NCBI GenBank assembly: GCA_026702845.1
Contig: JADCLS010000006.1
Coordinates: 124,001 to 188,000 of the forward strand
DNA from: Candidatus Heimdallarchaeota archaeon
GTDB taxonomy: Archaea > Asgardarchaeota > Heimdallarchaeia > Heimdallarchaeales > Kariarchaeaceae
Reading direction: 5' to 3'
Length of the DNA: 64,000 nt
The notes below the pieces were generated by a model. It was not told where the DNA came from and searched no databases. It saw nothing but the letters and a program-made list of their open reading frames with translations. Every line of letters starts with the position of its first letter. Position 1 is the first letter of the stretch. The translations under genes and the position numbers were made by a program. Positions 49,522 through 64,000 of this stretch are shown here, one piece after another.

Positions 49522-50517
49522 TTATCTAGAAAGAGATATTTTAAATGCTTTCACCTCTCGTAAAATAATTTCAAATAACTCATTGACGTTCTGATTATCT
49601 TTTGCTGAAGTTTCAAGATATCGTACTTTAAATTTTGGCATTGTTTTTCTGGAGTAATTATCTGCTACTTTTTCTCCCTCTTCTTTCTTAACCCTACGAT
49701 TTCGTAAATCAGCTTTGTTACCTACTAAAACAAATGGCATGAGGCTTTTTGTTGATCGAATCAATTCCTTCACCCACCAGTCTACTCTCATGAATGTCTT
49801 CCGGTCTGTAAGATCAAATACAACAACAGCACCATCAACATTTCTATAAAAATTTGAACGCATAGTTTTGTAGAAATCCTGACCTCCAAGATCAACAAGG
49901 GTAACATCTAATGTCTTTCCATCCAAAACTAATTGCTTCTCATCCATACTTGCCCCGATTGTGGTTAGATGTCTATCAATAAAATGCTTCCCCATCCATG
50001 CTCTTCGAATAGATGTTCTACCAGTAGTGCTATCTCCTATAAGCAGAATACTGACCTCCATATTTTTTGATTCAGCTACTGTTTTCGGTTGAATTAGTTT
50101 CGGTTTGATTATCTCTGGTTCATTTTCTATAATTTGAGTTTCCATAATTGAATCATTTTCTACTAGCTGTTGTTCAACTACTTTAGGAGTTGCTTTGATA
50201 CTTGTTATCTGAGAGTATACATTAGCCTGTGGATCAGGTTCATCATTATCCTCGAGATTTACGCCAAAGAATTTTTCAAAATTCGATTGTGTCAGAATTG
50301 ATGAAGATTTAGGAGTATCTTCAGGGAGGTTTAATTTGTCTAATTTATTTGAGATTCGCTTTTTTTCTTCCTCATAGTATTCTAAATCTTTCTGATACTC
50401 TTCTTCTGTATAATTTTCCTTTGGATCAACCAGAAGATTATACTTCTCCGTAATCCACTGGTATAAATCCTCTAAATATTCGTTATATTCACTGAAGGAA
50501 ACTTCATCATCACTCAA
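49522..50517 (-). CDS. Ras/Rab-like small GTPase with long N-terminal extension
   Basis: 331 residues. Residues 1-152 are a Glu-rich, coiled, low-complexity extension (YTEEEYQKDLEYYEEEKKRI). The G domain follows: P-loop GDSTTGRTS (161-169), switch I TTIGAS, G3 DLGGQDFYKTMR, G4 NKADL, G5 ETSAK. This is the Ras/Rab/Rag-type order. The P-loop residue that is normally Lys is Arg167 (codon AGA), which should weaken GTP phosphate binding. There is no C-terminal CAAX. The start is TTG; an internal start cannot be excluded. Asgard genomes encode many such GTPases. Confidence 0.88.
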   Translation of the reverse strand: MSDDEVSFSEYNEYLEDLYQWITEKYNLLVDPKENYTEEEYQKDLEYYEEEKKRISNKLDKLNLPEDTPKSSSILTQSNFEKFFGVNLEDNDEPDPQANVYSQITSIKATPKVVEQQLVENDSIMETQIIENEPEIIKPKLIQPKTVAESKNMEVSILLIGDSTTGRTSIRRAWMGKHFIDRHLTTIGASMDEKQLVLDGKTLDVTLVDLGGQDFYKTMRSNFYRNVDGAVVVFDLTDRKTFMRVDWWVKELIRSTKSLMPFVLVGNKADLRNRRVKKEEGEKVADNYSRKTMPKFKVRYLETSAKDNQNVNELFEIILREVKAFKISLSR

Positions 50518-53650: not shown

Positions 53651-54439
53651 TTATCGTATCCTTGGTCTTAATATAAGATCTACTGGATAATTGGTAGTAG
53701 TAGGTAATAGATTCTCAGAAATCAGGTGTTGTAATAATTTCTCAGTATCTTTGATCGATAAGCCAAAACGATCACTAATATCAGAGTAACTCAATTCTGA
53801 TTTCTTTTCATCCCATGATTCTTCAATAAAATTCACCACTAGATCATCAAGATCATCTTTGAGCCTTAAAATGGAATCAGAACCCATTACAATGGTTGAA
53901 GATTCTTCTTTCAGTTGCTCCAAGATGATGGTTTTTAATTTATCACGAAAATCAGATTCTATGCGGATAGTATTCACGACATCATTAAAATTATTCTCCT
54001 CATCAAAATCAAGAGAAGCAATTGCATCTACCCACAGAGTATGAATATAACTAGCTAGGTAAAGGTTGTTATCATTTCTGTAGAAATATGGGTCATCTAG
54101 TTTTCTGCGTTCGGCTTCTTCTTTAAGTACAATATAACATCGTTTAGCATTCAATCCCCAGGATTCTCCTGTTTTTTGTAAGTCAATAGGTCCTTTGGTA
54201 AACTTTGGCCATATATGCTCTAATTTATCATCAATTTCAGGGATATACCATCCCTTATTTCCAATAAATTTACCATTGGATATGGGATGTTCATTAAAAT
54301 ATTCCAGAATCAAATTGTGATCATGTTTATGTAGACTCTCAAAGAGATTAATTGCTCTATCTGTTATTTCTATGAGTTGTAGATCAGACTCCAACGCTTT
54401 CTTGGGATCCTTTTGAAATAATTTCTTGAAAAAGCTCAT
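53651..54439 (-). CDS. Hypothetical protein with C-terminal winged-helix-like segment
   Basis: 262 residues. The N-terminal part is helical and acidic (ITDRAINLFESLHKHDHNLI). In the middle, CYIVLKEEAERRKLDDPYFY is variable. The C-terminal SYSDISDRFGLSIKDTEKLLQHLISENLL has the helix-turn-helix spacing of a winged helix. An MSFFKKLFQKDPKK start is typical of amphipathic membrane-surface helices. No family recognised. Confidence 0.55.
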   Translation of the reverse strand: MSFFKKLFQKDPKKALESDLQLIEITDRAINLFESLHKHDHNLILEYFNEHPISNGKFIGNKGWYIPEIDDKLEHIWPKFTKGPIDLQKTGESWGLNAKRCYIVLKEEAERRKLDDPYFYRNDNNLYLASYIHTLWVDAIASLDFDEENNFNDVVNTIRIESDFRDKLKTIILEQLKEESSTIVMGSDSILRLKDDLDDLVVNFIEESWDEKKSELSYSDISDRFGLSIKDTEKLLQHLISENLLPTTTNYPVDLILRPRIR

Positions 54440-54698
54440 ACCCTGACTTTCAATCTGCTTTACTTAAATTTAGATTTTCACCCACTAGTATAATGCCATT
54501 TGGTACAATTGAATTATTGATTAAATAATCAGCAATATGTAAGATTTTAATTTAATATAGTTGAATGTGCCTATTTATCATCCCATGTATCAATAATTCA
54601 TCCATAACTAGAAAAAATTGTGAAATGTTACTATAGTTTTCTTTAATTTCGGAGATACTCATTTGAAGTATTAAAATTCGAAAATATTTGATTTTGGT

Positions 54699-54712
54699 AA
54701 TCTTTATATAGA
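54699..54712 (+). promoter_or_regulatory. TATA box of putative RNA gene
   Basis: TAATCTTTATATAG, about 26-30 bases before the point where base composition changes (about 54735). It is distant (280 bases) from the next coding region. Confidence 0.4.
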
Positions 54713-54734
54713 GTATTCATTCTAAGCAATATTA

Positions 54735-54880
54735 GTTCTTAATGGGATGGGAATAATCAGCATAAGATAGGTGGTTCGTAATAATGGGATACGAACCATT
54801 TCAATTGCTGTAGTTTACTTATAGGGGAGGGTATCTTCTCAAATATGTGGGGAGTGGAGATATTATTTATATCAAAGCAA
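54735..54880 (+). ncRNA. Putative structured RNA
   Basis: The interval is locally G-rich (GGGATGGGAATAATC; TTATAGGGGAGGG; GTGGGGAGTGGAGATAT) within AT-rich sequence. It holds GGTTCGTA at 54774-54781 and its exact complement TACGAACC at 54790-54797, with a 8-base loop: a stable 8-bp hairpin. No reading frame longer than a few dozen codons, and no tRNA cloverleaf fits. The identity is not recognised; exact ends are guesses. Confidence 0.35.
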
Positions 54881-54966
54881 ATTTCCTATTAGTTGTCGGG
54901 AATATTAGAAAATACGTTAAAATACGAAATGATAGATAAACCAATTTATATTATAGTATAACATTA

Positions 54967-56364
54967 TTGAATTATACGGGATACAATATGCCATTGGAAG
55001 ATGTACTTAATGATTACACTGAGGTTTATGGAAGGCCATCTCCAATTCGTTATCCGCTATTACAGTTAAGTGATCAACACCGTTCATTCGATGCACTCTT
55101 ACGGAGGTATTGGAATGATCTACATCCTCTAGTAAAAGATATTTTCACCTCATTTGCCAATGAATTTCAATATTTATTAGACATCATTGGTAATATTGAG
55201 GATAAGAAGGATGAGGAGATTAATGAGCTTAGACATGAGATGCAAAAGGCATTACAGACGATGCATACTCAACTGGATTCTATAAAGCTTGAACATTCAA
55301 CTGAACTTGATTTGAAGGATGATCAGATCTCTAACCTTGAACAAGAAAAAAATAACCTTTTAGATAAAATCATTAAAATGGAAGAAAGTCTAGAATCCTC
55401 TAAAACCATTATTAAACAGAAGGATAATTTAATAATTTCACAAAAAAATGAGATCACCAGGATAAATAAAGAGAAAAATGAAAATAAAATTAGTGTTGAG
55501 GCAGAAGTTATTAGTGAAACAATCGCAAATGTAGAGATATTTAGTAATAAATTAGATATCGTTGAGCAAGAAATGAAAATTATTGAAGAGGAGAAGTTGC
55601 AGGCCATTGAAAAAATCAATTCTCTTGAAAATCAGCTTGAGAAACAGAAAGAGGACTTTGAGTTGGTTCTGAAAGATAAAAATGATCGCTTACGAACTCT
55701 TAAAGAATCACTTCAAAAAATCTATATCACAACTGAACGTACAAAAGCAGAGAAGAAGGCAACTGAGAAGCTGAATCAAGCACAGAACAATCGAATTGCG
55801 ATTCTAGAAGAACAACTTGAAAATATGTCAAAAGAGCACCTATTGGTAAAGAAATATCTAGAAAAACAAATCGCCATAAATAAATCCTACCATGCACTCA
55901 CCCTAAAGGTTATAGAAAAAACCAAACCAAAATCAAGAGTCACGACTGATAAGAAATCTATTGAGAAGAAACCAGTCGATGTACCAGATCTTTTGGATCA
56001 AATTAATGAAAATACTGCCCAAAAAAGTGAAGAAAACATCATTTCTGATAGTACAAGCAAACTACAAGAGAAAACGATCATTAAACAATCACCTAGTAGA
56101 CGGGTTCCTGATGAGCCAGTACTCAAGGGTCGAATGATAGATCTAGTGAAAAGTAATGCGAGTAAACCAGTTAAAGGTGATATCAAATCTGTGCTGAGAC
56201 AAAATCTGAATAAACTGCAACAAGATCATGATAGTATATCCAATTCTTCCAAATTACTTGATAAGATGAAAAAATTAGATGAAGAAGAACCTGATCTCAA
56301 GAAAATCTTGAGAGACTTTCCTCCAGTTCCAGATGAAAAGAAAAAACAAAGAGAGACTGCATAA
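54967..56364 (+). CDS. Long coiled-coil protein
   Basis: 465 residues from TTG, or 458 from ATG at 54988 (MPLEDVLNDYTEVYGRPSPI). The N-terminal 75 residues form a small domain ending in DIFTSFANEFQYLLDI, then a continuous charged coiled coil runs over about 75-300 (KDEEINELRHEMQKALQTMH and DQISNLEQEKNNLLDKIIKM), followed by a disordered basic segment (KPKSRVTTDKKSIEKKPVDV) and a C-terminal acidic/Pro tail. No motif. The upstream AATTTATATTATAG box is nearer the ATG form. Possible structural or tethering protein. Confidence 0.6.
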   Translation: MNYTGYNMPLEDVLNDYTEVYGRPSPIRYPLLQLSDQHRSFDALLRRYWNDLHPLVKDIFTSFANEFQYLLDIIGNIEDKKDEEINELRHEMQKALQTMHTQLDSIKLEHSTELDLKDDQISNLEQEKNNLLDKIIKMEESLESSKTIIKQKDNLIISQKNEITRINKEKNENKISVEAEVISETIANVEIFSNKLDIVEQEMKIIEEEKLQAIEKINSLENQLEKQKEDFELVLKDKNDRLRTLKESLQKIYITTERTKAEKKATEKLNQAQNNRIAILEEQLENMSKEHLLVKKYLEKQIAINKSYHALTLKVIEKTKPKSRVTTDKKSIEKKPVDVPDLLDQINENTAQKSEENIISDSTSKLQEKTIIKQSPSRRVPDEPVLKGRMIDLVKSNASKPVKGDIKSVLRQNLNKLQQDHDSISNSSKLLDKMKKLDEEEPDLKKILRDFPPVPDEKKKQRETA

Positions 56365-56432
56365 ATTCTTCATAAATTATTCATTGTTAATCAAACAGAT
56401 ATTTAAGCTAGCATGTGAAAAAATCATTTACT

Positions 56433-57371
56433 ATGGCCAGTCACATTCCTTGTATATGCATCAGTGCATCCTCTGATAAAGAAATAGAGTACATCATAAA
56501 ACGCATTGAAAATCATATACCTGAAGTAGAGATCATCCGATTTAAAGATGTTCTCAAAGACATCACCCTACTAGAAAGATGTAAATTTATCTTCCCTATA
56601 GGTGGAGATGGTTCGGTGGCTTGGCTGATTGGGAAATTTTTTGATAAGTATGGCATTGAGAATCTCAGTAAACTAAAACCCATAGTTCCTGTTGTACGAC
56701 CCGAATCTGTGGGATACCTCAAGCAACTAGATTTTGAGCCAAAGAAATTCAATCGAGGTTTTAAAAAATTACTAAACAAAAAATATACCATACATAACAA
56801 GGCAGTGTTGAGAATTACTCTAGATGAAAAGGAATATTTAGCAGTAAATGAAATCAATATGAGCTGTGACCCTCATCTTGGAAAATATGATGTCTATATT
56901 CAAGCACATAACCAATACCACAAAATAACAACTACAAGAGCAGATGGACTTTTTATCTCTACTCCAATCGGTTCAACAGGTTGGGGATTATCCTATGGTG
57001 GAACTATCAATCTTACTGAAGATGCTCTTGAATTAGTCTTCGTTGGTGGGATTCATTCATCAGCCAATTTCACTCTCCCACGTGAGAAAATTCTCATTCG
57101 ATTAGAATTAAAAAACCCATCTATTACCCCTGAGACTTTGATGGCTTTCAAAAACGCTTGCAGGAAGAAAAATCTAAACTGTCAAGAAAGTATAAAAGAT
57201 CACTTGAACATTGCATTTGGTCCCAGAATAATCGTTGATGGTAAATTAGTTGCATTTGATGAAACTACCCTAGAAATTGATCCTTCATACTCTATACCAT
57301 TTGTCTTTTTAGAAAAGGAAACATTGATGGATAAGGCTCGTAAATTAACTAAACAACAATCTGTAAAATAA
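56433..57371 (+). CDS. nadK: NAD kinase
   Basis: About 312 residues from ATG at 56433; GTG at 56415 is alternative. Phosphorylates NAD to NADP. IFPIGGDGSVAWLIGKFF is the GGDG nucleotide motif (Ser where Thr is usual). EINMSCDPHLGKYDVYIQAH and TTRADGLFISTPIGSTGWGL are the substrate loops (the TPxGSTG motif is intact), then IHSSANFTLP. Fold and length fit the PpnK family. It precedes a nuclease-fold-like gene on the same strand. Confidence 0.92.
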   Translation: MASHIPCICISASSDKEIEYIIKRIENHIPEVEIIRFKDVLKDITLLERCKFIFPIGGDGSVAWLIGKFFDKYGIENLSKLKPIVPVVRPESVGYLKQLDFEPKKFNRGFKKLLNKKYTIHNKAVLRITLDEKEYLAVNEINMSCDPHLGKYDVYIQAHNQYHKITTTRADGLFISTPIGSTGWGLSYGGTINLTEDALELVFVGGIHSSANFTLPREKILIRLELKNPSITPETLMAFKNACRKKNLNCQESIKDHLNIAFGPRIIVDGKLVAFDETTLEIDPSYSIPFVFLEKETLMDKARKLTKQQSVK

Positions 57372-57406
57372 ATCTAGAACCTCATATTATCTCGATATAT
57401 ATCCGA

Positions 57407-57416
57407 TTTTATATAG
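57407..57416 (+). promoter_or_regulatory. TATA box for the 57438 gene
   Basis: TTTTATATAG, centred 26 bases before the GTG start. Confidence 0.5.
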
Positions 57417-57437
57417 AGTGATAACCATAAAGCAAAT

Positions 57438-57824
57438 GTGTCTAATGAAATACAAGAACACGCATTGACATCAACATTTATTGAGGAATGGATGAGATCC
57501 TACCACATTGGATGTGAGCGTGATGTAAGTATTCCTAGAAGTGGTAAAACGGTTGATTATCTCATATCTGAATCCAAGGTAGGAATCATGATTGTGCTCT
57601 GGAATAAACCAATTTCTGTAAAAATTGTCAATCATGCAATTTATGCCATAGAAAATCTGAATCTTGATACAATCTATCTTATATGCAAAAAAGTCTCAGA
57701 TTATGCTCAGAGCACAATAGATAAACTTGGATATGACATAAAAATCGTTCATCCGCTTGGATTATCCGATATCGCGGTAATGTTAGCAAATCATGGCAAA
57801 CAGTATTCAAAATTGATGACTTAG
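57438..57824 (+). CDS. Restriction-endonuclease-fold-like small protein
   Basis: 128 residues from GTG, with TATA spacing of about 26 bases. The order GCERDVSIPRSGKTVDYLI, GIMIVLWNK, DTIYLICKKVSDYAQSTIDK, and IVHPLGLSDIAVML resembles Mrr/PD-(D/E)xK folds (Asp in the second strand, K after the third strand). The usual E/Q-x-K triad is only partly met (V-L-W-N-K), so it may be an inactive member. Low confidence. Confidence 0.45.
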   Translation: MSNEIQEHALTSTFIEEWMRSYHIGCERDVSIPRSGKTVDYLISESKVGIMIVLWNKPISVKIVNHAIYAIENLNLDTIYLICKKVSDYAQSTIDKLGYDIKIVHPLGLSDIAVMLANHGKQYSKLMT

Positions 57825-57875
57825 GTTTGAATATACATTTAATGATAAAAAATTCGCTTTTATCAAACAACATTC

Positions 57876-57886
57876 AAATATATTTA
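57876..57886 (+). promoter_or_regulatory. TATA box for the Cys-rich mini-protein
   Basis: AAATATATTTA about 22-25 bases before the GTG at 57902. Confidence 0.4.
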
Positions 57887-57901
57887 CTTTCAATCTGACA
57901 T

Positions 57902-58081
57902 GTGAGTATACCTAAACCATCCGCGGGTGGCGGAAACACAAAATATGAATCTAAATGTGAACTTTACGACGGAGATGATACCACAGCGGGTTACTGTAAA
58001 GGCTGGGTAACGGCCACTCAGAAATGTATGAGACGTGATGACGAAGCGGGTAAATCCTGTAATGGTATTACACCCCCTTAG
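57902..58081 (+). CDS. 59-residue Cys-rich protein with internal repeat
   Basis: GTG start, TAG stop, 59 residues. Four Cys at 19, 32, 42 and 53 form two similar units: CELYDGDDTTAGYCKGW and CMRRDDEAGKSCNGI (C, Asp-rich turn, A-G, C, x-G). The first 18 residues are Gly/Ser/Pro-rich. The unit repeats suggest a small metal-binding (zinc-ribbon-like) or disulfide-stabilised fold. Base composition is clearly more GC-rich than the surroundings. It is supported by an upstream TATA box and by ending one base before the end of the convergent FAH gene. The reverse frame in this stretch is a shadow. Confidence 0.6.
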   Translation: MSIPKPSAGGGNTKYESKCELYDGDDTTAGYCKGWVTATQKCMRRDDEAGKSCNGITPP

Positions 58082-58082
58082 A

Positions 58083-58910
58083 TTATTTTCTAACAACAGT
58101 ATTTATCAAAGGAACAAAACCTTCAATTCTACATTCTATAACATCATTCTCCTTTAGAGGAGTAGCTCTTGGAGTACCTGTAGAAATGATATCACCAGGA
58201 TGTAATTCGATGAGTTCTGATAGAAAGGATACTAGGTAAGATAGGGAGAATCTCATATTTCGAGGATAGTTTTCTGCGTATACGTTGTTATTGATCGTTG
58301 TTGCAACTTTTAGGTCATCTAGATCAAGATCATCTGGAGTGATCATTTCAGGACCAAACGAGAAGAATGTCTCGAATGATTTTGATAAACTCAACCAGCG
58401 TGTATTTTGCCTCAATAGATCCTCTGCAGTCATATCAAGAATAGTAGTAAATCCAGCGACGACATCTAACCAGTCCTCCTCTTTTACATTTCTGCATTTC
58501 TTACCTATAATAATTCCCAATTCTGCCTCTCCAGTTGTTTTCTGAGATTGTCTCGGTAGAATTATTGAGTTACCATATCCTATGGGTCTGCTAGGCTTCA
58601 TAAACAGAACTGGATAGGTATCAGGAGCTGTGGCATCCAAATCCTTTGCATGTTCCACATAATTTAATCCAATTCCCCAAACTTGAGAAGGATTGTAATA
58701 GGGCACAGTGTAGCACATTGTTGATGTAGAGAGTGGTTCACCTTTAACTTTGGCAGCTTGTAATTTAGGTATTAAGTTAGCATCGAGCAGATCCTTTAAG
58801 GTTCCACAAAAGTCCTCAAATTCGATAAATTGATTGATGAGGTAAAATTCTGTATCTCTCGATACTGCAAGGGTTGATATCTCATTATGAATAATACTTC
58901 TAATTCTCAT
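58083..58910 (-). CDS. Fumarylacetoacetate hydrolase-family protein
   Basis: About 275 residues from ATG at 58910, with TCTTAATATTGG (minus sense, 58929-58939) about 24 bases upstream; TTG at 58931 is the longest frame. VWGIGLNYVEHAKDL, FMKPSRPIGYGNSIILPR, GEAELGIIIGKKCRNVKEED, GFTTILDMTAEDL, PGDIISTGTPRATPLKENDV are the FAH beta-helix hallmark segments with metal-binding E-x-E. Members act on 2-keto-4-enol acids or oxaloacetate; the substrate is not clear. Confidence 0.92.
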   Translation of the reverse strand: MRIRSIIHNEISTLAVSRDTEFYLINQFIEFEDFCGTLKDLLDANLIPKLQAAKVKGEPLSTSTMCYTVPYYNPSQVWGIGLNYVEHAKDLDATAPDTYPVLFMKPSRPIGYGNSIILPRQSQKTTGEAELGIIIGKKCRNVKEEDWLDVVAGFTTILDMTAEDLLRQNTRWLSLSKSFETFFSFGPEMITPDDLDLDDLKVATTINNNVYAENYPRNMRFSLSYLVSFLSELIELHPGDIISTGTPRATPLKENDVIECRIEGFVPLINTVVRK

Positions 58911-58964
58911 TATACTAAGAATATCTGCCAATATTAAGAAGATTTTGAAGAGAATCCATCCTTG

Positions 58965-59828
58965 TCAGATGAAAAGAAGTACAGCTCCTAAAAACATTAT
59001 CACCATTCCCAATAATTTCTCTTTGGTTTCTTCCTTTAGATACTTCTTGGCCAGATATGCAGTGACGAATACTGATAGTAAAGATGCGGGTTCTGCCACA
59101 GTTACTTCAAGATCTATAATTGCTAGAAGTAAGAAAAAGTATCCCCAACCATTTACCAATCCAGCCATAATAATTGGTTTTTTCTTTTCAGTCCAAATAA
59201 GTTTTAAATCTGGAAGTCTATGCTGGATAATTACAACTAACAGGATAATTGATCCTATAAATAAATTGGATAGAATGGCATAAAAACGACTATCAACAGA
59301 TTGTATAATATATGTATCCATAGCCCGGCCCAAGGCAATAAATATCGAACCACCGATCATTAAGAGAGATGATGATGAGGATTTGATAGCAACGATCTTT
59401 TCTTTCAATGGTCCTGGATAGAGATAAAAAAGACCTAAAAACATGGTCATCCCTCCTAGAACACGTAATGGAGTAACATTTTCATTTAGAAAGATACCAC
59501 CGATTATTAATAACCAAAGCAGTGAAGAGTTGTAAAGTGGTGCAATAAGTGAAGTCTCACCTATCTTTATTGCCTGAACATAGGCATAAAACCCAATTGA
59601 ATAGGAGATACTGGATACTAAAGTCATAATCCACAATGTTGGGCTAAGTTGTAAACTACTGCTGGGAAGAAACAGTAAAATTGGGCTGAGGAAGAGAGCA
59701 GCCAATAAAAAAAATTGAGAAGCAACTACACTGCTTTCAAAATCATCCAGAAATTTAAGGAAGATCCGTTCTGATCCAACAAATACAATCCGGATGATCA
59801 TAGCCAAATATCCAATATACACAATCAT
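58965..59828 (-). CDS. EamA-family transporter
   Basis: 287 residues, ten membrane helices in two EamA halves (first ends LYNSSLLWLLIIGGIFLNEN, second ends with LSVFVTAYLAKKYLKEETKE). Shorter than the 362-residue copy at 29641, with no N-terminal extension. Substrate unknown. It is 54 bases from the FAH gene end-to-start and could be cotranscribed, since both run leftward. Confidence 0.87.
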   Translation of the reverse strand: MIVYIGYLAMIIRIVFVGSERIFLKFLDDFESSVVASQFFLLAALFLSPILLFLPSSSLQLSPTLWIMTLVSSISYSIGFYAYVQAIKIGETSLIAPLYNSSLLWLLIIGGIFLNENVTPLRVLGGMTMFLGLFYLYPGPLKEKIVAIKSSSSSLLMIGGSIFIALGRAMDTYIIQSVDSRFYAILSNLFIGSIILLVVIIQHRLPDLKLIWTEKKKPIIMAGLVNGWGYFFLLLAIIDLEVTVAEPASLLSVFVTAYLAKKYLKEETKEKLLGMVIMFLGAVLLFI

Positions 59829-59943
59829 ACTGTAAATACTGTGTTTATTATATGTACCATCCTATCAATGTCCATTAGAGGATAAATTGCTTTTCTATTG
59901 GATGGATAATCAGACTTAATAATTTACTTTTAATATGTGAATT

Positions 59944-60630
59944 ATGTATTCCACATTGTTTATCGATTTTGATAATACTATAGTTGATTATTTTGCTGCT
60001 GAGAATGGTGCCTTATTCAAATTGGCCAGAGATTATAGAATTGAGGATGACAGAGTTCCAGAATTGGTGGACGTATACAAAGCCAAAAATAAAGAGTTAT
60101 GGGAACAATTTGAGAGAAAAAAAATATCAATCCCCGAAATCACAAGACAAAGATTCGAGTACTTGCAATCCAAATATCCAGAATTAAAGAGTACTCCTGA
60201 CGAACTCAATGAGCAATATCTTAATGCTTTTGTAAATGCAACAAAATTAGATCAAGAGGTGCAAAAGATCCTAGAGAAGTTAGCAGACAAATATTCAGTC
60301 ATAATTGTGAGTAATGGAATTCATGATATTCAAACAAGACGATTGGAGAAAGTGGGGCTATTTCAGCTCATCGATGGATACGTTACATCTCAAGAGGCTG
60401 GAGCTGCAAAACCTGAAACTGCCATGTTTGAACTAGCCATGCAAAAGTTGAAATCGCTTGGGAAAAATCCTTCAAAAGAACAGATATTGATGATAGGGGA
60501 TAGTAAAACTGCCGATTACCAAGGAGCAATAAATTTTGGAATAGATTTTTGTTGGATTTCAGAAGATAAAGAACATATAGGTAAGTACACAATTTCCTCT
60601 TTTGTTGAATTGGAAAAAATACTACTATGA
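59944..60630 (+). CDS. HAD-superfamily hydrolase (YjjG-like)
   Basis: 228 residues. Motif I LFIDFDNTIVDYFAAE (nucleophile Asp), a helical C1 cap (LARDYRIEDDRVPELVDVYK), motif II IIVSNGIHDIQTRR, motif III Lys at GAAKPETAMFELAMQ, motif IV MIGDSKTADYQGAINFG. This is the phosphatase/nucleotidase type. YjjG homologues remove phosphate from pyrimidine nucleotides; the specificity here is not proved. Confidence 0.9.
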   Translation: MYSTLFIDFDNTIVDYFAAENGALFKLARDYRIEDDRVPELVDVYKAKNKELWEQFERKKISIPEITRQRFEYLQSKYPELKSTPDELNEQYLNAFVNATKLDQEVQKILEKLADKYSVIIVSNGIHDIQTRRLEKVGLFQLIDGYVTSQEAGAAKPETAMFELAMQKLKSLGKNPSKEQILMIGDSKTADYQGAINFGIDFCWISEDKEHIGKYTISSFVELEKILL

Positions 60631-60649
60631 ATAAAAAAAATTAGTAAGG

Positions 60650-60662
60650 CTTTTATTAATAA
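60650..60662 (+). promoter_or_regulatory. TATA box of the longin-DENN-like gene
   Basis: CTTTTATTAATAA centred 24 bases before the TTG at 60680; it supports that start and a leaderless message. Confidence 0.45.
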
Positions 60663-60679
60663 ACGTCATATACTTAGTA

Positions 60680-62023
60680 TTGATATCTTCATGGCTTCAT
60701 AAGATCACACTAGTCAATAAGGTCGGAATTGGCTTAGCTTCTTATCCTGAAACTAAAGATGTATCCATGGCACAATTAGAATCCGGAATTACATCTGCCT
60801 TATTATCATTCACGAAGGAGATCCATCATCAGGAATTGGAATCTATTAATCTAGAGGACAGAAAGGTATACTTTGTTGGTATATCTGATTTTGTTATTGT
60901 TTTGGAAGTTGAAAAAGAAGTGGAGTATGAGACAATAGCAGGGATACTTCAAACAATTAAAAGCAGTGCAACTTGGTTACTTGAAGATAAGTCCTCAGAT
61001 AACATCAGTATTAAAGACGCAAATTTCATTCTGTCTGAAGTAGGAGCTATTTTTACCAGGATGGAATTTGTAGAACAGATGGAAATGGATGATTTAAAAC
61101 AAGATTTTATTTTGAATGATTATAAGATTTTTAGTTTTGAATTATCAAAGGGAATCCTAAATACATCAATCGATCTGGTAGAAATTTTCGACCTAGAAAC
61201 ATTTGTCAGCAAAATTCGTCAGCATCAAGATTTTACTTCGTACCTTATATCAATTTCCGATAATAGAGGGATGTATCTGATAGTTAATTATACAGATTTG
61301 GATTATTGTGGAGCTGGGATTATTGTAGAAAGTACTCAAATTCAACAATTGATATCATTTAAAGCATCGTATGATGAACAGATGAGACTGATAACACAGA
61401 TGGGTTATGAGATGGATTACAAAGCAATGCTGACTACAATTGTAGAAAATTCCTCTGGTAGATTTATCTGCTTCAAAAATAATGAACAGGAGTGGATTTC
61501 ATTGTATCTTCTGAAGCATATATTTGGCAATAATGTGAGTAACATGCTCAATACGTTGTTTTTAGCATCAAAGATCATTTTGGTTGGTGATCCAATTTTG
61601 ACGAAACAGGTAATACTATCTTTGAAACCATTTTTGCACAGTGAAACCTTAAAAATTGAATCGTTTCTTGATGAAACATCTGATTTTGAATTCTTCATGG
61701 CTGGTTGTAGCCCTTCCTTGTTTGAAGAGATCAAAGTAGAATTTGATTCTGCATTTTGCTATGATATCAACAATAATCGGATCATCTCAGATCCTGATAA
61801 TATTTTTTCAAGTAATGAATTTCTTAGATCGACTTTTGAAGATCTGATATTGATGCCTGCAGATCAAATACTAGTCGCAATTCATTCAATTATTAGAGAC
61901 TTATACTTCGAGGCGTTCACTGCTACTTGTAACATTGAAAACATTACTAGTGTAGATAGTAATAAGCGAAATTTAATCAAAAAGATAGCAATAAAAATGA
62001 ATCCACTGCAAAAATTAACTTGA
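60680..62023 (+). CDS. Longin-like N-domain plus DENN-like C-domain protein
   Basis: 447 residues. Residues about 5-105 have a longin/roadblock pattern: HKITLVNKVGIGLASY, SGITSALLSFTKEIHH (helix), KVYFVGISDFVIVLEVEKE (strands), GILQTIKSSATWLL (helix). The middle 130-280 is alpha/beta. Residues about 285-400 show the order of cDENN-type domains: ASKIILVGDPILTKQVILSL, FMAGCSPSLFEE (compare G-x-x-N-P-x-F of DENN proteins), SAFCYDINNNRI (compare D-V-L-x-D-I-x-x-G-x-I), then helices. This resembles longin-DENN proteins such as folliculin, which regulate small GTPases. The start is TTG with a TATA box about 24 bases upstream. The DENN assignment is pattern-based. Confidence 0.5.
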   Translation: MISSWLHKITLVNKVGIGLASYPETKDVSMAQLESGITSALLSFTKEIHHQELESINLEDRKVYFVGISDFVIVLEVEKEVEYETIAGILQTIKSSATWLLEDKSSDNISIKDANFILSEVGAIFTRMEFVEQMEMDDLKQDFILNDYKIFSFELSKGILNTSIDLVEIFDLETFVSKIRQHQDFTSYLISISDNRGMYLIVNYTDLDYCGAGIIVESTQIQQLISFKASYDEQMRLITQMGYEMDYKAMLTTIVENSSGRFICFKNNEQEWISLYLLKHIFGNNVSNMLNTLFLASKIILVGDPILTKQVILSLKPFLHSETLKIESFLDETSDFEFFMAGCSPSLFEEIKVEFDSAFCYDINNNRIISDPDNIFSSNEFLRSTFEDLILMPADQILVAIHSIIRDLYFEAFTATCNIENITSVDSNKRNLIKKIAIKMNPLQKLT

Positions 62024-62217
62024 CAGCATTTACATTTTTTTGTCAACCACTGAATTATCCATTAATCTTTTAAGTGCATATGCGTATACTTTTTTAGCAG
62101 AATCTGAAAAGAGGATGCGAAAAAAATATTGGATTCAGATGTTCCCACATTAGTATTGAGTTTACGCAGTGTTTCTCAATATGATTTCGGCCTTGGTGAG
62201 AACATCGAATCATTTTT

Positions 62218-63396
62218 TTATTCTTGTTTAACTACTTTCTTAGCATATGCTATTCTGTCACGAATAGGAGGGTGAGAGTATAGAAACAGCACTTCCCATG
62301 TGGAAGGGTCAGGATAGCTCATAGATGTTTTTGCTAATCGTGTGAATGCAGATTCATAGATCTCAATATTATTAATATGTTGCAAAGCAGCAAGATCTGC
62401 AGCCTTTTCTCTAGAACGTGAGAAACTCATGGAAAGAACAGAGATACATTGTTGGATCAAGAGGAACAACATCACAAAAACTGGGATTGTGGCTGGATTG
62501 GAGAAAGTTCCATATGCAAATACCTCAACAAAATATTCAGATGCTTGAAAGATGATGATAAATGAGATCATACTTATTATGCCATTAAAAATAAATTGAC
62601 GATAAATATCCCTGTGCTTCTGATGAGCAATTTCATGGCACATCACGATCTCTATCTCATCATCTCGAAATTCTTTAACTAGTGTATCACCCAAAACAAT
62701 TCTAATAGAGCTCCCAAATCCCATAACTGCTGCATTGACTTTTTTTGTTGCATCTGATAAACTCCACAGATAAATATCTTTGAATTTTATCCCCATAGAA
62801 TTTGCTAAATTTTCCATTTTCTCTCGTAATTCTCCTTTGGGAAAAGGGTTCAATTTGAAAAACATTGGAACAATCAGAATTGGAAAGAGAAATTGTATGA
62901 TGGCAAAGAAGATAAAATATGCTAAAAATGTGTAAATCCACCAGGATTCAGGAAACATATCAATAAACTTGTAAATACCAATTATTGCACCTCCAGCAAT
63001 AAGAATAATTAGGAAAAGTGCCTTAAATTGTCTTTTAATCCACTTTTTCATGGTCAATGTAGAGAAATCATAATCCTGTTCTATCTTTTCTGCAAGATAA
63101 CCAATTAGAAAGCTCTTTGAGAAAAGTATGAATATAAGTAAGATGATCTGAATTGCAGTACCAATAATGGAATATGAAGTATCTAAATTGAAAACAGCAG
63201 ATACAGATCCACCAAAATCAACTAAAACCAAAAATATTAACAATACAATATCAGTTAAAATTCCAGCAAGCTCTAAACGCAATTTTTTATCATGGTACTG
63301 TTTGTGAGTATCATTAATTTCTGCAATATAATCCTTGTATTTCAGATATGTCAAATTATTGACCCTTTCTGGGAGTGAAATGATTTCTTCAGACAT
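62218..63396 (-). CDS. M48 zinc metalloprotease, Ste24/CAAX-like
   Basis: About 392 residues from ATG at 63396, chosen because a TATA box (CAAAATATAA in minus sense, 63421-63430) lies 28 bases upstream; the longer frame from 63417 overlaps the spacer region. Seven or so membrane helices; the zinc site is VMCHEIAHQKHRDI (HExxH), with the third ligand Glu in SREKAADLAAL (ExxxAD). Active-site domain SIRIVLGDTLVKEF is typical of Ste24 and HtpX. Probable membrane-embedded protease cleaving CAAX or misfolded membrane proteins. No prenylated CAAX GTPase is in the window. Confidence 0.92.
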   Translation of the reverse strand: MSEEIISLPERVNNLTYLKYKDYIAEINDTHKQYHDKKLRLELAGILTDIVLLIFLVLVDFGGSVSAVFNLDTSYSIIGTAIQIILLIFILFSKSFLIGYLAEKIEQDYDFSTLTMKKWIKRQFKALFLIILIAGGAIIGIYKFIDMFPESWWIYTFLAYFIFFAIIQFLFPILIVPMFFKLNPFPKGELREKMENLANSMGIKFKDIYLWSLSDATKKVNAAVMGFGSSIRIVLGDTLVKEFRDDEIEIVMCHEIAHQKHRDIYRQFIFNGIISMISFIIIFQASEYFVEVFAYGTFSNPATIPVFVMLFLLIQQCISVLSMSFSRSREKAADLAALQHINNIEIYESAFTRLAKTSMSYPDPSTWEVLFLYSHPPIRDRIAYAKKVVKQE

Positions 63397-63524
63397 ATGC
63401 AATAGGATACTGACCATCTTTTATATTTTGTTGCTTCATCATCATCAATAATTGAATGGACACTTTATGTATTCTGAAGTATAAGTATTAAATTATGCTC
63501 ATGATTAAAACCAAAAACTATTGT

Positions 63525-63932
63525 CTATTTGGAAACAATATAATTGAACTCTTTCCTGTTTGACCACCAAATACCTACCTTTGTAAATAAAGATATATGA
63601 TCCTTTGTTACAATCTCCACTGTATCTTTATTGGCAACGACATATTGTAGTCTATCGAGTTCGATCTCTTGCTTTCCATCAGCATCTAATAAAATTAACT
63701 TATCATCAAAAACCTCTTCTAGGGTTCCTGCTAGAGAAACATCAAAATTATCCTTTGTATAGATAGTTATCTTACTATTTTGGAGTGATTTCAACAAATC
63801 AAGTTGTTCGCTTATTCTCTCCTTTCTTGTTTCAAAACCTAGAGGAGAAAATGAAACTATGATATCAGAACCACGTACTGTCTCGTCATTTAGCTCAATG
63901 ATTGAATCTGACCACGTAGATCCAAACTCCAT
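63525..63932 (-). CDS. Hypothetical beta-rich protein
   Basis: 135 residues. After an acidic head, KITIYTKDNFDVSLAGTLEE, DKLILLDADGKQEIELDRLQ and VVANKDTVEIVTKDHIS form alternating strands, similar in spacing to small Sm- or PRC-barrel-like sheets, but no signature is definite. No signal peptide. The 200 bases upstream (to 64000) hold no recognisable gene. Confidence 0.4.
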   Translation of the reverse strand: MEFGSTWSDSIIELNDETVRGSDIIVSFSPLGFETRKERISEQLDLLKSLQNSKITIYTKDNFDVSLAGTLEEVFDDKLILLDADGKQEIELDRLQYVVANKDTVEIVTKDHISLFTKVGIWWSNRKEFNYIVSK

Positions 63933-64000
63933 AGATTTTACGGTTTTTAGCCTGGATACACCTTTATTGAAATATATAACTTCCTTTCCTATTAGATGCT

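Follow-up and report, generated by a model that had tools for sequence, protein, structure and literature searches.

A candidate longin-DENN protein, probably part of a small-GTPase regulator, in a Heimdallarchaeota archaeon and its relatives in Asgard genomes

In the longin-DENN dimers FLCN/FNIP and SMCR8/C9orf72 the longin domains hold the GTPase and one of the two subunits gives an arginine (Arg), as described in parts of PMC8213707 and PMC7464330. A stepwise emergence of DENN modules early in eukaryotic evolution has been proposed in PMC3521125, where the DENN module of folliculin is also said to have escaped sequence analysis, and DENN has so far counted as an innovation of eukaryotes. 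In Asgard archaea the single longin, roadblock and TRAPPC3 proteins (PMC10933270) are eukaryote-like GTPase regulators, as the protein described here would be, and longin-GTPase fusions are reported among them; the term DENN is absent from the accessible text of that paper, which describes no DENN module. In this study we describe a candidate longin-DENN gene in a stretch of 64,000 nucleotides from a Candidatus Heimdallarchaeota archaeon (assembly GCA_026702845.1, contig JADCLS010000006.1, positions 124,001 to 188,000 of the forward strand), hereafter the window, and several DENN architectures that we found across Asgard archaea. With a probability of roughly 60% we read the encoded window protein as an Asgard longin-DENN protein, built of a CCZ1/MON1-type longin, then a middle region and finally a DENN/d-DENN module of the folliculin/C9orf72/DENND kind, which likely controls a small GTPase in a dimer. 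The parts of the gene are as follows, in window coordinates:

60680 to 62023, forward strand: longin-DENN gene of 447 amino acids, TTG start at 60680, stop at 62021-62023
60698 to 61042, forward strand: N-terminal longin, possibly of the CCZ1/MON1/INTU kind, residues 7-121, found by a leave-one-out N profile at E 6.4e-31
61058 to 61465, forward strand: middle region, possible second longin-like domain, residues 127-262
61487 to 61795, forward strand: DENN domain, about residues 270-372, from AlphaFold2 (AF2) model m3405078abefc with Foldseek and VIA matches
61574 to 61591, forward strand: IILVGD, first strand of the DENN sheet, residues 299-304 (model strand 50-53 is residues 299-302)
61703 to 61723, forward strand: GCSPSLF, strand-helix junction of the DENN domain, residues 342-348 (end of model strand 91-94, start of helix 96-106)
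61760 to 61783, forward strand: YDINNNRI, strand end, turn and start of the next strand, residues 361-368 (model strands 110-113 and 118-121)
61802 to 62020, forward strand: d-DENN helices, about residues 375-447 (model helices 131-141, 145-168 and 178-191)

The gene and its family are directly supported. We sought homologues in other Asgard genomes, and a single-protein search through 227 genomes of the same phylum gave a match at E <= 0.1 in 126 of them (best 2.3e-22); many of the matching frames are about 470 amino acids long, and this family is referred to as F1. The profile A1, made from 22 rows of F1 with the window protein included, found strong relatives (at least 192 bits; contig ends truncate some of them) in 26 of the 227 genomes and matches at E <= 0.001 in 103, some through the longin part alone; it also retrieves two proteins in the protein collection. 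The F1 relatives amount to 43 non-identical frames, among them some fragments. When the window protein was left out and the profile built from its F1 relatives alone (at most 43 rows), that profile covered window residues 7-414 at E 1.2e-40, and separate pieces of the window protein were recognised at 6.4e-31 (N-terminal) and 1.1e-8 (C-terminal); 6000 shuffled pieces did no better than 0.0062 against the N profile and 0.01 against the C profile. The three motifs noticed by the sequence-only reading, an earlier reading of the bare sequence, indeed lie at the places it named, and the finding of the window protein by a family profile that does not contain it puts them beyond chance. Only four columns are invariant in the 22-sequence alignment, one of them being G303 of IILVGD. 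The TTG start is backed by the F1 gene L049, whose own start, picked mechanically, aligns with it; L049 belongs to the Asgard genome that has the enolase nearest to the window enolase (84% identity). The window is placed in Asgard archaea by this enolase, which is also 52-56% identical to 25 contigs of Lokiarchaeota or Lokiarchaeia (L001-L025), and by a Ras-family GTPase that it encodes.

The DENN assignment is directly supported as well. A DENN domain had been recognised by pattern only, and the predicted structure of the C-terminal half, examined with AF2, Foldseek and VIA, gives DENN and no different fold. With the C-terminal model as query, Foldseek ranks entries of DENND1B and DENND1A first and second, and the VIA rows from FLCN (13.4) to DENND1B (12.3) are nearly tied. 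The structural alignment extends to FLCN residue 558 (model residue 192) and, with DENND1B, to 370; the leave-one-out sequence match stops at residue 414, inside the d-DENN stretch. All parts of a DENN module given in the sections of PMC3521125 used here, namely an N-terminal longin (at the level of the family), a three-layer alpha/beta DENN domain in the centre and an all-helical d-DENN with helices at about residues 380-440, are thus present. It might be possible that the C-terminal half is some other small alpha/beta fold with the same strand order, for example a degenerate P-loop NTPase domain, and this we consider very improbable, since DENN chains are clearly separated in Z from other chains, since the d-DENN helices align too, and since the sister families described below match Folliculin and Folliculin_C in sequence. 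A tri-longin protein with three longins, as in MON1, CCZ1, HPS, INTU and FUZ, was ruled out because the C-terminal half is DENN. The A1 and A8 profiles also matched MDM2 in the PDB over about 40 residues, with best E values of 0.23 and 0.03, which we took as chance. The Pfam DENN family PF02141 does not match the window protein and is over its cut-off in none of the 227 Asgard genomes, and the two families of folliculin proper, PF11704 and PF16692, do not match the window protein up to E 10.

Two sister families, likewise directly supported, connect F1 to folliculin. The last 200 residues of F1 match Asgard proteins of about 380-450 amino acids (F2) with E values down to 1e-22, and the F1 C-terminal half matches F2 in a profile-profile comparison at 2.7e-20. 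F2 comprises L097-L102, L104, L106, L107, L109, L112, L120 and P0004-P0071, many of the named ones from Heimdallarchaeota. Their N-terminal longin matches Pfam Folliculin (PF11704), above cut-off in three of the four first examined, and among the 227 Asgard genomes PF11704 has a match in 59 and is over its cut-off in 40. Against the PDB the F2 profile finds only two folliculin sequences at E <= 10 (0.012 and 0.013). None of 14 control genomes matched PF11704, PF16692, PF19031 or PF02141, a set in which no control proves that a true folliculin is detectable. The A3 profile retrieves 68 proteins in the protein collection; it had no match among 149 genomes from the phylum to which the Methanobrevibacter locus belongs and none of three in another check, empty results that say nothing by themselves because the set holds no positive control. 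The second family, F3, is compact (326-345 amino acids; L153-L161, L168/L189) and consists of an F1-type N-terminal longin and a DENN domain, the latter matching the F1 C-terminal domain at a profile-profile E of 2.2e-16. Folliculin_C (PF16692) matches two of the three F3 members scanned (0.0016 and 0.0035, under cut-off); in the whole set it reaches E <= 0.01 in 12 of 227 genomes, and the one match over cut-off (2.2e-6) lies in an F3 frame. The interpretation given by the sequence-only reading, a longin-DENN layout as in proteins such as folliculin or SMCR8, is thus supported.

The N-terminal longin was recognised through the family. PF19031 (Intu_longin_1, the first longin of INTU, CCZ1 and HPS4) matches 12 of the 22 F1 members at E <= 1, best 2.4e-4, and the window protein is not one of the 12. 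With the F1 N profile MON1A is the sole PDB chain at E <= 10 (E 0.26), which is weakly consistent with a longin on the level of sequence. The F1 N-terminal domain also matches that of F3 (profile-profile E 4.3e-9), and the N-terminal part of a single-sequence AF2 model shows, at low confidence, the strand and helix order b-b-a-b-b-a-a as in longin. There was no profile-profile match between the F1 N-terminal longin and the F2 longin, nor between the F2 and F3 longins, so that F1/F3 on one side and F2 on the other seem to bear different types of longin. Compared with FLCN the window protein would hence carry a different longin type, and in addition it has a middle region of about 135 residues. 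Possibly this region is a second longin in F1: the F1 middle aligns weakly with the folliculin-type longin of F2 (E 0.016), colinear with the DENN match, and of 60 column shuffles only one, at 26.9, outscores the hhalign value of 19.5. Compared with the tri-longin guanine nucleotide exchange factors (GEFs) MON1/CCZ1, INTU/FUZ and HPS1/HPS4, the F1 N-terminal longin may resemble their first longin, whereas the C-terminal domain of the window protein is DENN and not a third longin, and its middle region is only a possible longin.

A number of observations weigh against our reading. Taken alone the window protein is orphan-like, because it matches no Pfam family up to E 10, finds no relative except itself in a single-sequence search of 5.8 billion proteins, and has no notable sequence match in the PDB and none in a peptide scan. 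The F2 C profile, run against the window protein with HMMER, had only shuffles among the matches listed, so that the link from the window protein to folliculin is transitive, via F1; with the F3 C profile the window protein reached 0.0097, which is shuffle level (best shuffle 0.0049). The alignment behind the C-terminal AF2 model consists of F2 sequences in 31 of its 34 rows, which may have steered the model. The longin assignment rests on Pfam scores around the cut-off of 23.7 bits for PF19031: the best F1 member reaches 24.1 bits in the whole-genome search but 21.7 when scanned as a whole protein (L046), and this support is therefore borderline. The single-sequence AF2 model has a predicted local distance difference test (pLDDT) value of 36.7 and thus gives no confident longin, and a fold search with it was uninformative, with no longin at the top. 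The longin placed at the N-terminus by the sequence-only reading accordingly holds at family level, by the F1 profile and by PF19031 in F1 members, with borderline scores and no confident fold of its own. The middle piece of the window protein is missed by F1's own middle profile. No Arg stands in the window middle region at the position of FLCN Arg164 or in the beta4-beta5 loop, as judged from the alignment. Finally, no second F1 gene lies within the 64-kb window, and no GTPase family was found among the neighbouring proteins scanned from 53651 to 63998.

How the window protein might act can be argued by analogy with the eukaryotic complexes. Its longin and DENN surfaces would most likely bind a small GTPase of the Rab/Rag/Arf class, and it would control the nucleotide state of that GTPase as one half of a longin-DENN dimer, probably in the non-catalytic part that FNIP plays beside FLCN and C9orf72 beside SMCR8, otherwise as a GEF. 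The Arg is informative here. FLCN Arg164 is the catalytic finger (PMC7464330), SMCR8 Arg147 has been seen at the ARF1 nucleotide (PMC8213707), and proposed DENN GTPase-activating proteins (GAPs) are marked by an Arg finger between longin beta4 and beta5 (PMC12803157, a preprint), each as stated in the portions cited. In the alignment of F2 with the PDB (counted from its start at residue 149) FLCN Arg164 stands opposite a conserved F2 Arg, and this column is Arg in 73/73 aligned F2 sequences, that is 11 locus frames and 62 of 68 collection proteins (six of up to 360 amino acids were omitted), some rows being identical or nearly so; L105, L115, L125 and other PF11704 proteins that are more distant lie outside this alignment. 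By eye, a catalytic Arg was not seen in the N-terminal longin of the window protein either. In 11 of the 26 F1 genomes two F1 genes lie less than 3 kb apart on the same strand and contig (in G017 the contig stops within the second), which is only a hint of a heterodimer with a second longin-DENN protein. Three proteins (L125:1267-2676, L126:520-1974 and L129:1267-2676) fuse a folliculin-type longin, over the PF11704 cut-off, to a Gtr1/RagA GTPase, linking FLCN-like longins to Rag GTPases. Because the Arg is kept in F2 and missing in F1, because F1 genes are often paired and because of the longin-Gtr1/RagA fusions, the window protein would probably be a non-catalytic subunit of a small-GTPase regulator. 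In role it may be likened to FNIP1/2, C9orf72 and NPRL3, the non-catalytic partners in longin-DENN or longin GAPs, and it differs from FLCN, the GAP for RagC together with FNIP, in having neither the Arg finger nor a direct Pfam match.

The main rival is a DENN-type GEF acting alone, as DENND1A/B does with Rab35, whose longin and DENN would clamp a Rab-like GTPase and free GDP. The DENN and d-DENN fold is common to both, the two DENND1 entries lead the Foldseek matches, the Arg finger is absent, and the window also encodes a Ras-family GTPase (49522-50517). We nevertheless think this explanation unlikely, as the dimeric longin-DENN complexes are a closer likeness in view of the additional middle region and of the paralogues that stand in tandem in relatives, and as FLCN scores next to DENND1B in VIA. 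A further difference from DENND1A/B and other monomeric DENN Rab GEFs is that PF02141, the DENN family, gives no match. It is rather more doubtful that the fold is kept as a non-catalytic scaffold, in the way of DENND10 in the Commander complex: the longin and DENN core is conserved in the family, which has been kept in 26 of 227 genomes, and relatives of the folliculin type occur as fusions with GTPases. A non-catalytic subunit within a dimer that controls a small GTPase thus is our preferred role for the window protein.

The earlier suggestion of a prokaryotic relative of a eukaryotic GTPase-regulator family is supported, the window protein being one of a set of distant longin-DENN relatives in many Asgard genomes, and such a set suggests that longin-DENN control machinery predates eukaryotes. 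There might be about an even chance that the whole class (FLCN/FNIP, C9orf72/SMCR8, DENND) originated in Asgard archaea and branched out there ahead of eukaryotes, with Arg-finger F2 proteins acting on Rag-like GTPases, F1 and F3 as non-catalytic partners, proteins with DENN in tandem, and fusions of longin to Rag. Alternatively the genes could have been acquired from eukaryotes by lateral transfer and would then be uninformative on the time before eukaryotes. This seems improbable to us, as Asgard archaea hold several families and architectures, as these are wide-spread (F1 profile in 103 and Folliculin in 59 of the 227 genomes), and as their divergence, far below easy detection, argues for a long residence there. 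If indeed the class arose in Asgard archaea, the origin of Rag/Rab control, the system concerned with mTORC1 nutrient signalling and with lysosome and endosome identity, would move before eukaryotes, and F1, with a CCZ1/MON1-type longin and possibly a second longin before DENN, would link the tri-longin and DENN regulators. The Asgard proteins would also offer small archaeal material for measuring ancestral GAP or GEF activity. Since many F2 entries of the protein collection already carry Pfam Folliculin as a precomputed annotation, the F2 match to folliculin is visible in databases; among the papers listed from the open PMC literature, a scope that leaves subscription papers and most preprints outside, we found no discussion of this match or of F1.

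The gene neighbourhood gives little clue to function. The Ras-family GTPase mentioned above is encoded on the reverse strand, 10 kb from the F1 gene, with no evidence of a link; it carries a 150-amino-acid N-terminal extension of no clear family. At 53651-54439 (reverse strand) lies a 262-amino-acid protein with a sub-threshold match to the PCI domain (E 0.0032). Of ten neighbours of F1 genes scanned in relatives, those with a family are peptidases or a beta-lactamase-like protein, acetyltransferases, a protein with an integrase core and a pyridoxal phosphate (PLP) enzyme. The only shared neighbour seen is a peptidase, judged from its sequence to be of the M48 type, which lies near the L137 F1 gene and is 44% identical to the product of window 62221-63417.

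Other Asgard architectures were noted along the way. Proteins of about 760 amino acids (L183:2082-4394, L184:2257-4530 and L188:1779-4076) contain two tandem DENN-like domains, with profile matches at two places, and by eye their N-terminal region looks like a longin followed by a winged helix. In L066:1357-2088, L068:152-877, L185:1479-3206 and L186:608-2119 a DENN-like domain follows a small CxxC motif, which looks zinc-ribbon-like by eye, and there is no longin. In another Asgard group a folliculin-longin gene (L105:1895-2902, L111:1930-2949 and L108:244-1221) adjoins a galactose-1-phosphate uridylyltransferase-like gene at all three loci viewed.
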